Source of the DNA: a virus
Strand: one strand, 5' to 3'
Length of the DNA stretch: 22,415 nt
Virus record (IMG/VR): IMGVR_UViG_3300023284_002575
Span: 1-22,415 of that record
Part shown: piece by piece, positions 13,310 to 19,186 of the stretch
How the letters are laid out: each line of letters opens with the position of its first letter
Position numbering within the stretch: the first letter of the stretch is position 1
Position numbers and translations under genes: made by a program
The notes under the pieces: model-generated
Database searches by the model: none
Told to the model about the DNA's origin: nothing
Seen by the model: the letters and a program-made list of their open reading frames with translations, nothing else

Positions 13310-13741
13310 TTAGATGTCTTCTGCTATTTGCAATCTAGTCTGTGTTCCATTTTGTATACTATTTCTACGATCAAAATCAACTTCAAATGTTCCAAAAGCT
13401 TCAAACGGAATATAAAAAACAGCAATATTTAATCTTATTCCGTGTTCAAATTCGAGAATATCAAGTCTATCTAAATTTACTCTTGGTTCTTGTGCAATAA
13501 TAGCTTCAACGTCTGCAATAATAGCTTCTCTGGTTGTTCCGTCGAATGGATCAAATAAGAGATCCCAAATAATACTACCAAATTCAGGACGCATTACTCG
13601 TTCACCTCTCCTAGTGAAAAAATGATTCAACAGATCTCTTTTAACTAAATCAATATCAGTAATTTCGGTATCAGGTTTGATTTTATCAATTGAACTAAAT
13701 CCACGAAAAAGTCGCTGTGTTGTTGTTAACGTTCGAACCAC
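13310..13741 (-). CDS. 25: Baseplate wedge protein gp25 (GPW/gp25 family)
   Basis: Small wedge protein with the GPW/gp25 fold, found from T4 to type VI secretion (TssE). It sits with gp6 and gp53 in the inner wedge and helps start sheath assembly. The 143 residues compare with 132 in T4 gp25. Typical features are a leading DxxLVKRDLLNHFFTRRGERVM, then RPEFGSIIWDLLFDP, an acidic helix (TREAIIADVEAIIAQEPRV) and a C-terminal strand region. The start is GTG at 13739-13741: an in-frame stop lies at 13757-13759, no ATG occurs in between, and AAGGA sits 10 bases upstream. It is the first gene after the exact late promoter at 13777-13784, so it heads the gp25, gp6, giant-protein segment. Identity is nearly certain; the start is slightly less so. 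Confidence 0.95.
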   Translation of the reverse strand: MVRTLTTTQRLFRGFSSIDKIKPDTEITDIDLVKRDLLNHFFTRRGERVMRPEFGSIIWDLLFDPFDGTTREAIIADVEAIIAQEPRVNLDRLDILEFEHGIRLNIAVFYIPFEAFGTFEVDFDRRNSIQNGTQTRLQIAEDI

Positions 13742-13807: not shown

Positions 13808-15967
13808 TTAAGCGGCAGGATTCTTTGCAAATAGCTTAGCTTCTGTTACTCTTCTGTTTGTTAACCCTTGTAATGGTTGAAGTGTGCCGCCAATATTAGC
13901 TTTATTCCATCGCTGCATTTCATTTGGAACTTCTTGATAGTTCCCTTCGTTTATTCTTTTTACGAGAGTGCTATTACAGAATCCAGTATTTCCTATGTTA
14001 AATGCCATACTTACTAGAGCGTCATATTGATTATTTGTGAGCGGTTGATTAACACAACCTCTTACTGCTTCTTGGACATTAGCAAGATCTTCTCTTAATA
14101 ATTCTTCAACCTCAATATCAGTAATAAACCCACTTGCAAAACGACCGGAAGCTCTATCTGCTTCTGTTATTAAATGACCCACACCAATAGTTGACAGTCC
14201 GGCTGCATCAAAATAGATCCGATTTTCAAAACCTTCAAATTTTGTGATTAGATCAAGTCCAACTTGACTTACTCCAAGAGCTGCGATTGGACTTAAATCA
14301 CTTGCAAGAACATTCGCTACTTGAATATATTCTGGCAATAAAGCACTATTATATCTTTGACCTATGAGATTTGTTGCGTCCGGAAGAATTATATTATTTG
14401 GTATTAATTGTCCTAATAAAGAAGAACCAGATAATATTGATGAATCACGAGGACTCTCAACAATTTTACGATTTACGCCCTGTGTAGAAACATTATGATC
14501 AATCCAAGGTTCATGTTGTGGAACACGTGATGCAATATTAGACCCGTCGGGATATGCAGCACCGGGTTCCCATCTTCCAGAATCGGTCGCTTCGGGTGGT
14601 TGGCTTGTGCCTGCTACCTCATATGAGGTGGGTGTTGACGGTGCGTCGGCCTGTGGGCCGCCTCCACTATTCATAAAAATATTACTAGCTTCTTCAGAAA
14701 GATTACCTACGGCTGTAATTCCAATTTCGGAATCAGAATTAACAGCATAATCTCCAGCAGCGTGCGAACTAATTTTTGCTCCGCTCTCTATGTTAATATT
14801 TCCTTGTATTAAAGTATCAAAATCTTCACCTGCAAGTATTCTAATATTCTTTCCGGCGACTATATTAATGTCTCTTTCTGCTTGTATGTTAATATCTTTT
14901 AATCCAGCCTTGAGATTTATATCTCCTTTCTCAGCATGAATTGAAATATTTCCAGAAGTATAAATATCAAAATTTCCATCTCCCTTATCGCTGAGTTCTA
15001 ACCATGTTCTTCCGTCGCGACTAATTGCATAAACAAATCCGTCTGTTTGATCTATTAGTAATTGTGCGCCGCCTCTAGTTCGTAATCTAATAAATTCACG
15101 GGTTTGAACTGGAGGACTTTGTGGGTCAGAACTTGGCGGCTCACCATCGTCCATAACAAACTGACTTCCATTAGGAGTCAATATTCCAAAAACTTGACTA
15201 GGTGATTCTCTTCTTGCAGAACTAGTGCTCTGTCCTCTTGCTCCATCTTGATCTAATCCTTGTTGAAGTTTAAGTCCATCTCTTAATGGTTTGAACATTC
15301 TTCTATCTGGATTATCTTTATTTTTTGTATTTTCTGCAACACTTAGATCTGCTTCAATAACAGGCCCGGCTTCATCATCCATTACATCGCTATCTGAACC
15401 TTTAAAAATTGTGTCTTGACCAACTCCAGGAATCATATGGTTAAGATCTTGTTGAAATAAACAACCAAACCATACTCCAAAATTAGGATCACCATTAACA
15501 AACAAAATTAAAACCTCATTACCAACGTCAGGTGGGGTAAACCACATGCCATATGATTGTCGGCCACTATACTCTGTTGGTTTGTTATCTTTACGAATAG
15601 TATCGGGTTTCGGTACACGATTAGCAGCATCAGCGCGATCCCCTATATCTTGAATAGCGCCAATACCTTCCGAGCTTATAGTATCTTTTTTAGGATCTTT
15701 ATAAAAATCAAAATTAAAGAAAGATGCTCCAGCAAAAGGAGAACAATATGAACAGATAATCCAATTTTCTTCTTTGTCGGCTTCTCCTGATAATTCTGGT
15801 ATCCAGACTAAAATTCTTCCCATTCGTTGTGGGTCGCGGGCGTCTCTAACGATCCCTAGATAAGTTTTTGTAAGAAGGGTAGTATCAATTGCTGGTTTTT
15901 TTTCATACCCTTTAGGCAATTTTGCTGTTCGTTGTGTTTCATGATATTCGAAATCTGGATGTGCCAT
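13808..15967 (-). CDS. 5: Baseplate hub spike with C-terminal lysozyme, gp5
   Basis: Central tail spike that pierces the outer membrane and digests peptidoglycan at injection. The N-terminus (about 25-180) is the gp5 OB-fold: KTYLGIVRDARDPQRMGRIL, NWIICSYCSPFAGA, and PPDVGNEVLILFVNGDPNFG with WFGCLFQQD. Around 325-425 is a beta-helix like that of VgrG and gp5C (repeats such as DINLKAG, DINIQAE, DINIVAGK, NIRILAGED, NINIESG). A Pro/Ser-rich linker follows. About 570-719 is a GH24 phage lysozyme with the catalytic spacing E-8-D-5-T intact (E578, D587, T593; GLSTIGVGH) and a C-terminal QYDALVSMAFNIG motif. T4 gp5 is 575 aa with the lysozyme between OB and beta-helix; here the enzyme is last. The ATG lies 2 bases after the upstream stop, with an AGGAAG ribosome site inside the end of that gene. 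Confidence 0.93.
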   Translation of the reverse strand: MAHPDFEYHETQRTAKLPKGYEKKPAIDTTLLTKTYLGIVRDARDPQRMGRILVWIPELSGEADKEENWIICSYCSPFAGASFFNFDFYKDPKKDTISSEGIGAIQDIGDRADAANRVPKPDTIRKDNKPTEYSGRQSYGMWFTPPDVGNEVLILFVNGDPNFGVWFGCLFQQDLNHMIPGVGQDTIFKGSDSDVMDDEAGPVIEADLSVAENTKNKDNPDRRMFKPLRDGLKLQQGLDQDGARGQSTSSARRESPSQVFGILTPNGSQFVMDDGEPPSSDPQSPPVQTREFIRLRTRGGAQLLIDQTDGFVYAISRDGRTWLELSDKGDGNFDIYTSGNISIHAEKGDINLKAGLKDINIQAERDINIVAGKNIRILAGEDFDTLIQGNINIESGAKISSHAAGDYAVNSDSEIGITAVGNLSEEASNIFMNSGGGPQADAPSTPTSYEVAGTSQPPEATDSGRWEPGAAYPDGSNIASRVPQHEPWIDHNVSTQGVNRKIVESPRDSSILSGSSLLGQLIPNNIILPDATNLIGQRYNSALLPEYIQVANVLASDLSPIAALGVSQVGLDLITKFEGFENRIYFDAAGLSTIGVGHLITEADRASGRFASGFITDIEVEELLREDLANVQEAVRGCVNQPLTNNQYDALVSMAFNIGNTGFCNSTLVKRINEGNYQEVPNEMQRWNKANIGGTLQPLQGLTNRRVTEAKLFAKNPAA

Positions 15968-15969
15968 TT

Positions 15970-18864
15970 TTAACTTCCTGTTGTATTACTTAGGTTTATT
16001 ACTGCATTTATTACGTCAGATTCTTGAGTTAATATATCTGCATGTCCAATTAATTTTTGTGTAAATTTTCCATTAGAAAAGTTATTCTCGACCCGTCTAA
16101 TATAATAAACACCATTAAATCCATTTTCCTTGCGATTTATATTATATAATCCTGTTCCTTCAAAGCTATCGTCGCGATTATCTCCCCCGTCATTTATTCC
16201 ATTTGGAAATGCAAATGTCATTAATATTAGCGAATCTGCTCTTGTTAGATCCCGCGAATTAGCAGAGGAAACAGTTAACCGTTTCAATATATCAGGTTCG
16301 CCTAACCAATACGGATCACCTCTTATCGTCATTTCTATCTGTCGCATCTGACTACTTACTCCATAAACCTGATTCATAACAGATGAAAAAAACGATCTTC
16401 CTTTTGATGCGGTTCCTTCCACACCTATTTCGGCTGAATTATTAGTTGGAGCTATTTCCGTCCCAACATTATTATGTGCCTGATTTTCAGTTTTTGTTGT
16501 ATCCGGTCCTCTTTTTTCTTGTTCCAATTTTTCTAAATCTTCAGCAAAAAAGATTGAACCTTTTATGTTTTGTTTTGATGTTTGACGATTTTTTACTTGT
16601 TCAACAAATTTTCGTTCTTCGTCGGAAATTATAATCTCAGATTCTTGAAACAGATTAATATTTCCACCAATACTTCTAATATCTGTTTCAAGTCGTGTAA
16701 CAGGGCTACCAAAAGTTGAAGTATCAATTTTGCGAGCGCCCGTTCTTAGTTGTTGTTGTTGAAGGCCTATAGCTTTGGCAAGTATTGCTTCTTGTGTAAG
16801 ATCATTTTCTTGTTGTGTTACATCTATTTTTAATATTTCTTTTAATAATCGTTGTCGTTCTTGTTCAAGCGTAAAACCTTGTGGCGCATCTAAAACATTT
16901 AACAGTTTACCTTCGATATCTTCAAGCCTTGCAGCTTTCTTAGCACGAATACTCTGGGTTGAGTCGTTAACAGCATCTGCTGTTTGAAGAATTCTAAGAT
17001 CTGATTTACTAAGATCTATAAATCCTGAAGACATTCCGAGAGCAGTTCTATTTTGTCCTTGAAATATAGGAAGAGATAAAAACCAACTTCTATCAAATTT
17101 AATTTTATAATCCAAAACTTCAGTGTTTAATCCAGTAAACATATATTCGTATTTTTTACGAAGATTTGTAATTTTTAATTGTTTTGCAAGTCGTGCTTTA
17201 CTTTTTCTTTCTTCTAAAGAATCTTCTATCTGTTCTCTGGAAAGAATTGGTTGAAAGGTTAGATAAGGTCTTATATGATAAACATTTAATGTATTGTAGG
17301 CGCGGGCCACCCCATTATAACTTATAATGTCCACAGTAGGATCTACAGTAAAAATGACAGATGGTTTTGTTGGTTCCCTTGGTTCTTTTATTTTAATATC
17401 ATTTACATTTCCACGTTTTTCTCCGTATAGAGCAAGTGATTGTCCTTCAACTGTTGTTCCTATAATCTCTTGTATTATAGCTTCTATTGCGGTTCCTTGT
17501 CCGAATGTAATTCTCCATCGTCTTTGACCATCAACAAAAGATTCGCTTCTCCTATTCTCAGCAATATTTAGACCTCGAATTTTCCAAGTTCCCATATCAT
17601 TTATTTGCGGAACTTGATTATCTTTTGCAAAATTTAATTCATCACCTCTCGGTAAAGAAAAAGCATATTTTCTTACACGTTCTGTAATATCTTGTGACTC
17701 TTCATTGGCTGTGCTATAATTTTCATTATTGTTTAATTCTTTAGATAGATTTTCAAAAAATTCTTTTAAATCAGCAGCGTCAATCTTTATATTTGTTTCC
17801 AATCTTCGTGCAGCGTCACCAAGACCTTGCTCATTAAGAGGAATTGCTGTAATAACATATTCTGTTCCTCCTTTATTAATTTCTGCTTCAATTCTTCTAA
17901 TTTTGATTTGCCAAGTTCTAGTTTCTTCATTTAACTCACCTGTTGGTATTCCACCGTCGTGTGAATTTTGAGCATTGTTTTCTCCCTGGGAGTAACCTTT
18001 AAACGAGATACTAAACCATAAAGGAGCATCTTTATGATCAATAACCCCTAATGAACTAGCAGCATTTCTCATTCTATCAATTAATGAGTTTCCGTGAGGC
18101 TCGATAATAGATATTTTAAGATTTGTTGCATAAGAATTTCTTGTTAAAAGCGACGGAGAGATAATTGTTTTTATATTAACATCTGTAATATTAAATCCAG
18201 TCGAACCTGTCTCTGCAATTACTACAATATCTTCAGTAGATAAAGTATTGCTAGTAGCAAGTTCGCCAGTCATAAAAAGTCTAAAATTATAAGTCATAGC
18301 ATCAAATTTAGTTAATATATTGTCTTCAATTCTAATATCACTTACAGATGTATTAGTATCTATTTCATCTTCTTCGGCGAAGTCGAGTTCGGGAACTAAA
18401 CCAATTTGATTTCTTAATCGATCTACTAATTGACGTGTCTGCTGTATTTCTCTTAAAGCAACTACATTAGTTTCAGTTTGTTGCTGAATGGCTCTAGTTC
18501 TATCAATTACTGTTTGTAATTCTGGTGATGTTATTGCACCTTGCGGTGCTGTTTTAGTTTGATCAGTTCTTTCTATAAGAGTATCAAGACTGTCTATCTT
18601 AGATCGTAATTCTCTTTTAGCAACAAGACGTTCACGAGCATCCTGTAGCTGACGAGGTTCCCTACGTTTTCCTGCGTCGGCGTTTGTAGAATTCAAATTA
18701 TCAAATGCTTCAGGTGTAGCTTTTCCACGTTGTCCAATAAGACTAGTTCGTGTCCGTGTCACTCTTGCTGGATTATCACGCTCTGCGTGCGAAAGCTGAG
18801 CAGCGTTTTGTTCAGTTGTTGTGTTTCCAGGTGGCTGTTCTTTAATTCTTTTTCGAGATGGCAT
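15970..18864 (-). CDS. Large baseplate hub-like structural protein (possible gp27 counterpart)
   Basis: A 964-aa protein between gp53 and gp5; I do not recognise it with certainty. The first 110 residues are charged and low-complexity. A Gln/Arg-rich coiled-coil-like stretch lies near 110-155 (RTRAIQQQTETNVVALREI). From about 180 a structured region contains KISIIEPHGNSLIDRMRNAA and PLWFSISFKGY, which recall gp27-type and late-control-D hub proteins. A long helical, Lys/Glu/Gln-rich section follows (about 560-800). The C-terminus has RGDPYWLGEPDILKRL, then GVYYIRRVENNFSNGKFTQK, a pattern typical of hub/tube proteins ending in a ring-forming beta domain. Its place directly before gp5 suits a hub partner of the spike, as gp27 is in T4, but it is more than twice gp27's length. 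Start ATG with AGGATAA upstream, 4 bases after the gp53 stop. Confidence 0.6.
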   Translation of the reverse strand: MPSRKRIKEQPPGNTTTEQNAAQLSHAERDNPARVTRTRTSLIGQRGKATPEAFDNLNSTNADAGKRREPRQLQDARERLVAKRELRSKIDSLDTLIERTDQTKTAPQGAITSPELQTVIDRTRAIQQQTETNVVALREIQQTRQLVDRLRNQIGLVPELDFAEEDEIDTNTSVSDIRIEDNILTKFDAMTYNFRLFMTGELATSNTLSTEDIVVIAETGSTGFNITDVNIKTIISPSLLTRNSYATNLKISIIEPHGNSLIDRMRNAASSLGVIDHKDAPLWFSISFKGYSQGENNAQNSHDGGIPTGELNEETRTWQIKIRRIEAEINKGGTEYVITAIPLNEQGLGDAARRLETNIKIDAADLKEFFENLSKELNNNENYSTANEESQDITERVRKYAFSLPRGDELNFAKDNQVPQINDMGTWKIRGLNIAENRRSESFVDGQRRWRITFGQGTAIEAIIQEIIGTTVEGQSLALYGEKRGNVNDIKIKEPREPTKPSVIFTVDPTVDIISYNGVARAYNTLNVYHIRPYLTFQPILSREQIEDSLEERKSKARLAKQLKITNLRKKYEYMFTGLNTEVLDYKIKFDRSWFLSLPIFQGQNRTALGMSSGFIDLSKSDLRILQTADAVNDSTQSIRAKKAARLEDIEGKLLNVLDAPQGFTLEQERQRLLKEILKIDVTQQENDLTQEAILAKAIGLQQQQLRTGARKIDTSTFGSPVTRLETDIRSIGGNINLFQESEIIISDEERKFVEQVKNRQTSKQNIKGSIFFAEDLEKLEQEKRGPDTTKTENQAHNNVGTEIAPTNNSAEIGVEGTASKGRSFFSSVMNQVYGVSSQMRQIEMTIRGDPYWLGEPDILKRLTVSSANSRDLTRADSLILMTFAFPNGINDGGDNRDDSFEGTGLYNINRKENGFNGVYYIRRVENNFSNGKFTQKLIGHADILTQESDVINAVINLSNTTGS

Positions 18865-18868
18865 TTTG

Positions 18869-19186
18869 TTATCCTAGTAAACTTAAAATTCTTTGTTTAG
18901 TTGGTATAAATATTTCTATTTCAGTAACAAAATCATAAATGGGATCGATAATCGTATCAGGATTTCTTACCATAAAAACCCACCACAAATCAGGAGTTCC
19001 ATATAATTCGTTGCTAAAAATATCGGGACGCTCATTAAATTGTGGAGACAATACAATAAGTTCATCTGTATCATCTTCCGGAACGGGTATAAAAGTTAAG
19101 ACATCTAAATATTCTACTAAGAAATTTCTCTGTGGTGTTGTAAAATATGGTGAATTCTTTTTGTATATGACAACCATTATACCCAT
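18869..19186 (-). CDS. 53: Baseplate wedge protein gp53
   Basis: Inner wedge component that binds gp6 and gp25 in T4. The core RPDIFSNELYGTPDLWWVFM followed by RNPDTIIDPIYDF and IFIPTKQRI is the recognisable gp53 signature (short ordered domain with LYG-xP-xLWW). At 105 aa it is about half of T4 gp53 (196 aa). Two starts are possible. The ATG at 19186 overlaps the upstream gene by 10 bases but has its GAGGGGG directly abutting the ATG. The ATG three codons later (19177) overlaps the upstream stop as TAATG and places that purine run about 9 bases away, which is the better ribosome spacing. The longer form is given here. Confidence 0.85.
   Translation of the reverse strand: MGIMVVIYKKNSPYFTTPQRNFLVEYLDVLTFIPVPEDDTDELIVLSPQFNERPDIFSNELYGTPDLWWVFMVRNPDTIIDPIYDFVTEIEIFIPTKQRILSLLG

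Follow-up and report, generated by a model that had tools for sequence, protein, structure and literature searches.

In gp5 of phage T4, the OB fold is followed by the lysozyme and then by the beta-helix. Following maturation cleavage, which occurs at Ser351-Ala352, the helix blocks the lysozyme until dissociation (PMC3004832). The enzyme has been described at a different place in giant phages. RaK2 gp078 was reported in 2013 to have 'a very unusual domain composition', in which a beta-helix domain is accompanied by a lysozyme domain at the C-terminus; mass spectrometry of virions did not detect the protein (PMC3622015). The CBB protein, published in 2017, is described as beginning with a gp5 domain, possibly containing an M23 domain in its center and ending with a lysozyme (PMC5259590). 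In our Pfam searches the order OB fold, helix and C-terminal GH24 was also found in RaK2, 121Q, Munch and Vibrio phage 2.275.O. The layout with a C-terminal lysozyme is therefore not new: it was published for giant phages in 2013 and 2017, and it is standard in these well-described relatives (RaK2, CBB, 121Q, Munch and Vibrio phage 2.275.O), the outcome that the original prediction for the present locus had named as one that would refute it. In the A-1(L) structure a lysozyme domain occurs in the hub protein and not in the spike. Evolved VgrG proteins are bacterial weapons that come with an immunity protein, and they contain a gp27-like hub within the VgrG chain. One of them, VgrG3cp, carries a peptidoglycan hydrolase (muramidase) C-terminally on the spike of type VI secretion (PMC9927483).

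The DNA analyzed here is a 22-kb viral contig fragment from IMG/VR (22,415 nucleotides; the whole stretch is called the window). It encodes a gp5-like spike protein, and the coordinates of the features are listed in Table 1. The original prediction had the coordinates of this gene right and requires only a correction of the strand; the plus strand has no open frame over the interval, and the gene lies on the minus strand. The genes in the window are ordered sigma factor, cytidyltransferase, structural protein, gp53, structural protein, gp5, gp25 and gp6. This order recurs, slightly varied, in Phosso, Atu_ph07, PA5oct, RaK2 and 121Q. The position of the 964-aa structural protein makes it a candidate hub partner of the spike.

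Table 1. Positions of the spike gene, its domains and its neighbors in the window, and of free lysozyme genes in three related phages (contig named).
Feature	Position	Strand	Evidence
Open frame of ~3195 aa, running off the contig end	3-9587	-	virion structural phrog_10938; weakly a tail fibre family
gp6-like baseplate wedge protein, 1237 aa	9584..13297	-	phrog_10646, 1182 bits
gp25-like baseplate wedge protein	13310..13741	-	Pfam GPW_gp25 3.8e-13
gp5-like spike gene with C-terminal GH24 lysozyme, 719 aa	13808..15967	-	Pfam/PHROG, homologues
OB fold (Phage_base_V), residues 34-171	15455..15868	-	Pfam 1.2e-13; AF2 pLDDT ~80-90 mostly
Conserved pre-helix segment, residues 181-290	15098..15427	-	invariant D241, R244, G245, R253, G261, D273, D274 (alignment A4)
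Predicted trimeric beta-helix with octad repeats, residues ~291-440	14648..15097	-	DUF2345, lag-8 periodicity, VgrG/CIS spike matches
Pro-rich flexible linker, residues 441-475	14543..14647	-	pLDDT <50 at 449-474; composition
Conserved post-helix motif SRVPQHEPWIDH, residues ~479-491	14486..14542 (residues 476-494)	-	52/76 tails; pLDDT ~80
Second linker, residues 495-560, Leu-rich, conserved	14288..14485	-	pLDDT <50 mostly; dN/dS ~0.2
GH24 lysozyme domain, residues 561-719	13811..14287	-	Pfam 2.5e-36; triad alignment; Foldseek
Catalytic residues E578; D587; T593	14234-14236; 14207-14209; 14189-14191	-	triad alignment
Virion structural protein, 964 aa, directly upstream of the spike	15970..18864	-	phrog_11190 2.7e-48
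gp53-like baseplate wedge protein	18869..19186	-	Pfam Phage_gp53 8.6e-6; phrog_7145 1.6e-21
Second free GH24 genes in RaK2, 121Q and Munch	L005:10380-10868; L006:8635-9123; L007:8638-9126		

The presence of an OB fold, a beta-helix and a C-terminal lysozyme in one chain and in this order is confirmed by the Pfam matches, and it agrees with the octad repeats, the AlphaFold2 model and the Foldseek matches. The model reached a mean pLDDT of 72.5 with an alignment of 49 sequences (the window protein and IMG/VR proteins) versus 34 from the single sequence. The OB fold is N-terminal as in T4 gp5 and is preceded by only 33 residues; it matches Phage_base_V, best over residues 135-171, whereas T4 gp5 itself matches Gp5_OB. 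AlphaFold2 predicts it with confidence at residues 36-170 except for a low-confidence insert at ~89-134. The segment that follows contains no lysozyme at residues 181-290, unlike T4 gp5. Next comes the predicted beta-helix. Here the hydrophobic autocorrelation over residues 333-440 is maximal at lag 8 (p=0.011), and this octad period is that of the gp5C repeat VXGXXXXX in T4 (PMC3004832). Pfam DUF2345, a VgrG-type beta-helix, matches residues 338-404 with 26.9 bits, just below the curated cut-off of 30.7, and the Foldseek matches of the spike body are VgrG and contractile-injection spikes. The first helix strands (residues 291-337) are predicted with confidence, and they are the only helix strands that appear in the AlphaFold2 monomer model.

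The region between helix and enzyme (residues 425-560) had been described as a single Pro/Ser linker. It is not one linker because residues 476-494 are a conserved motif and residues 496-560 are Leu-rich and conserved; only ~441-475 are Pro-rich. The AlphaFold2 model has two disordered stretches, 449-474 and 495-552, and between them a short confident segment at ~481-490. The GH24 domain is again predicted with confidence (~560-716). The Pfam family Phage_lysozyme matches residues 576-709 (E=2.5e-36), which places the enzyme after the helix and not between OB fold and beta-helix as in T4 gp5. Residues E578, D587 and T593 align with the catalytic triads of T4 lysozyme (T4 e) and T4 gp5, in agreement with the prediction that they are intact. 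In Foldseek the domain matches the endolysins 8app and 7m5i and the muramidase 6h9d. The nearest lysozymes in the databases are stand-alone enzymes with ~40-43% identity, namely lysins of Roseobacter and Caulobacter phages and the endolysins of Phosso and Atu_ph07. Hence the window protein resembles T4 gp5 in its OB fold, octad beta-helix, GH24 triad and baseplate position; it differs in domain order and in the lineage of its GH24.

A survey of marine T4-like gp5 proteins had been suggested as a check of the domain order. Two marine T4-like phages were checked, S-SSM5 and HTVC008M, and in neither was a C-terminal lysozyme found in gp5; the relevant relatives are therefore jumbo phages of the RaK2, PA5oct and Atu_ph07 type. 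The closest named spike bodies are the gp5 proteins of Atu_ph07, Phosso and PA5oct, with ~32-35% identity over residues 13-491, the motif region included. The three differ at their C-termini from the window protein: Atu_ph07 has an endolysin-like segment and a trypsin-like domain, Phosso a long Gly-Ser stretch and an endolysin-like segment, and the 477-aa PA5oct spike has nothing at this place. The PA5oct homologue carries an ESI-MS/MS mark in its record. A protease such as the trypsin-like domain of Atu_ph07 (L001:5974-8571) is unusual on a phage spike, and the Gly/Ser stretch in Phosso (L003:5983-9117) is very long.

We extracted 76 non-redundant C-terminal tails from the relatives, most of them metagenomic, and scanned 49 of these, mostly the longer ones and including that of the window, for protein families. 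GH24 was found in 18 of the scanned tails, GH19 in four and M23 in three; single tails match trypsin-like, SLT, VanY or GDSL families, and the PHROGs add further endolysin-like families. The C-terminal slot of these spikes thus contains GH24, another recognised enzyme, a domain without a family match or nothing, and some of the spikes stop soon after the helix. On the spike-body tree (68 rows) the states GH24, other and none require at least 17 changes, and the starred branches force at least six changes for GH24; the exact counts hinge on the cut-offs because 'GH24' was assigned by our own profile at E<1e-4 and 'none' to tails of <185 residues. A group of 710-aa IMG/VR proteins (L011-L038) has a C-terminal E-x8-D-x4-S-x-G-x-G pattern, which resembles a diverged GH24. 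Its domain has no Pfam family match, and for this reason the group was left out of the lysozyme count.

In some relatives the lysozyme sequence is in the next gene. The spike in contig L061 ends with ARVPEEEPWFNH...VYK, and the next frame, a GH24 open reading frame of 291 aa, starts at an ATG that overlaps the spike stop codon (TAATG; L061:2311-4406); this overlap suggests translational coupling of the spike and a free lysozyme. The spikes of L066 and L069 end in an apparent degenerate GH24 N-lobe, in which the catalytic Glu is replaced by Ser (L066:3593-5846, L069:5884-8020). The open reading frame that follows is a homologue of the C-terminal portion of the fused L060, L063 and L071 proteins (46-58% identity, E values as low as 8e-71); these fused proteins are in the same 100/100 clade of the spike-body tree. 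Judged by these alignments, the lysozyme fold is apparently split over two genes in L066 and L069, with the C-lobe in the second one, and the split enzyme is possibly inactive. The lysozyme sequence in the next frame in L061, L066 and L069 means that the covalent join is optional among the relatives. Free genes also occur next to fused ones: RaK2, 121Q and Munch have near the fused spike a second, free GH24 gene, which is close kin of the fused domain. Another enzyme type shows positional lability as well. The lytic domain of the phrog_27932 region follows the helix in L040 (L040:2-1564) and precedes it in Rhizobium phage RL2RES (L049:2008-4587).

A motif R-V-P-x-H-E-P-[WFY], or a close variant, occurs between helix and payload in 52 of the 76 non-redundant tails, whatever follows it. 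The motif itself is present in the tails of the window, L008, L054 and L060-L128 and missing from all four RaK2-type proteins (RaK2, 121Q, Munch and Vibrio phage 2.275.O). In the short spikes that bear it, the chain usually stops ~20-50 residues further on. In the window protein it has a pLDDT of ~80 and is flanked by disordered stretches. It may serve as a cap, a hinge, a docking site or a processing site. A pairing of the motif with a PAAR tip protein was considered and rejected. PAAR genes are present in PA5oct, Atu_ph07, T4 and Phosso (L133-L136) and were not found in RaK2, 121Q, Munch and Vibrio phage 2.275.O; they were also not found in the motif-bearing contigs of 170-327 kb, while T4 does have PAAR. 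In this clade of jumbo phages the motif might mark a C-terminal slot in which wall-degrading enzymes have repeatedly been added, swapped, lost or split off, either fused to the spike or encoded by the next gene; this would be a phage version of the contrast between evolved and cargo VgrG effectors. We put this forward tentatively, as an idea with slightly less than an even chance of being right.

The origin of the fusion in the window can be explained in several ways. Since split arrangements occur among the relatives, a spike gene could have been joined to a neighboring endolysin gene by an error in sequencing or assembly. However, the same in-frame, single-ORF fusion is present in L008 (87% identity over the full length) and in L009 (85% identity; the protein is truncated at the contig end), two independent metagenomic viral contigs from other samples. 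Purifying selection is furthermore evident in all domains and in both linkers (dN/dS < ~0.25 for the window against L008 and L009), and residues 496-560 show no indels relative to L008. The repeated fusion in L008 and L009 rules out an artefact, to which we assign practically no weight. It is also very improbable that the lysozyme was 'moved', as the original prediction put it, from the middle of an ancestral T4-type gp5 to the C-terminus. The fold and the catalytic triad are identical, and T4 gp5 likewise combines OB fold, GH24 and helix; on the other hand, a common GH24 clade of the window, L008 and T4 gp5 was rejected under the model used (AU test, p=0.000287). In the GH24 tree (27 rows, with poorly resolved deeper nodes) a 100/99 branch groups the window and L008 with endolysins and separates them from T4 gp5, T4 e and the RaK2 type. 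A clade that joins the window GH24 to the Phosso, Atu_ph07 and DLP_6 endolysins was not rejected (p=0.107), a value that gives it no positive support.

Another explanation is a single C-terminal fusion that was ancestral to the window, RaK2, 121Q, Munch and Vibrio phage 2.275.O. The RaK2 gp078, CBB_240 and 121Q gp587 type (Alcyoneusvirus, Asteriusvirus and kin) indeed has the same domain order as the window protein, and the gene cluster is syntenic over gp53, structural protein, gp5, gp25 and gp6. We nevertheless regard a common fusion as unlikely. A clade of the window and the RaK2-type fused GH24 domains was rejected (AU test, p=9e-13), which indicates the same architecture and not the same fusion event, and a clade of all C-terminal fusions was rejected too. 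Furthermore, three of the four RaK2-type proteins (RaK2, Munch and Vibrio phage 2.275.O) contain a central M23-like segment, as reported for CBB; with Pfam it was not detected in 121Q, and the window protein has no M23 match. The HEPW motif is missing in all four, their GH24 belongs to another lineage, and relatives without GH24 stand between the two types in the spike-body tree. As a caveat, an in-place swap of one GH24 for another would give the same picture. The grouping with endolysins, and not with T4 gp5 or the RaK2 fusion, gives the window GH24 an endolysin-type affinity at the level of sequence and argues that the joining of the enzyme to the spike C-terminus was most likely independent of both.

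We consider it likely that the product of the gene is the trimeric central spike of a T4-related contractile-tailed, probably jumbo, phage and that this spike carries tethered, active GH24 domains of independent C-terminal origin. In the proposed mechanism OB fold and beta-helix would form a trimeric puncturing needle in the virion, and three GH24 muramidases would hang on flexible C-terminal tethers beyond the post-helix motif. During entry the enzymes would cross the outer membrane with the spike and cut peptidoglycan at its leading edge. The expectation that, compared with T4, tethering behind the needle alters the coupling of puncture to digestion is supported. With the lysozyme after the helix on flexible tethers, the topology forces neither a T4-style occlusion nor a cleavage to uncover the enzyme, and we infer that a T4-style cleavage would be dispensable. 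The enzyme had been placed at the membrane-distal tip; the needle, however, has its C-terminus distal to the tail and proximal to the host membrane. The tether of ~84 disordered residues has a contour of up to ~290 Å, which exceeds the 110 Å of the T4 helix (PMC3004832), so that the position of the lysozyme is not fixed by the sequence. Storage of the enzymes along the spike, folded back, is equally conceivable.

The chain may alternatively be processed, with the C-terminal lysozyme cut off in the linker and then free or held non-covalently as a virion lysozyme. Such processing has a precedent in the cleavage of T4 gp5, and the AlphaFold2 model of the window spike offers two disordered linkers for it. 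The lysozyme in L061 is a separate open reading frame right after the motif, which means that covalent linkage is not always needed. Yet a cleavage motif was not identified in the window chain, and the linkers are kept in length and sequence among the window, L008 and L009, a result that would be compatible with cleavage too. We judge processing to have perhaps one chance in a handful, and we favor the tethered enzyme. By analogy, the closest tested mechanistic parallel for a tethered enzyme is an evolved VgrG with a C-terminal muramidase, in which the effector is likewise C-terminal to the spike helix and delivered on the spike. The two differ in that VgrG has the gp27-like hub in the same chain, whereas the short N-terminus of the window protein leaves no more than the residues before the OB fold.

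In itself the window gene is mostly ordinary, one more and independent instance of an architecture known since 2013. More is to be gained from the wider pattern: the same needle occurs with different enzymes, with none, or with an enzyme encoded by the next gene. Because the relatives vary both in payload and in its linkage, the roles of covalent tethering and of maturation cleavage are testable by natural comparison. The payload pattern also connects the entry enzymes of phages with type VI secretion and the logic of its VgrG effectors.
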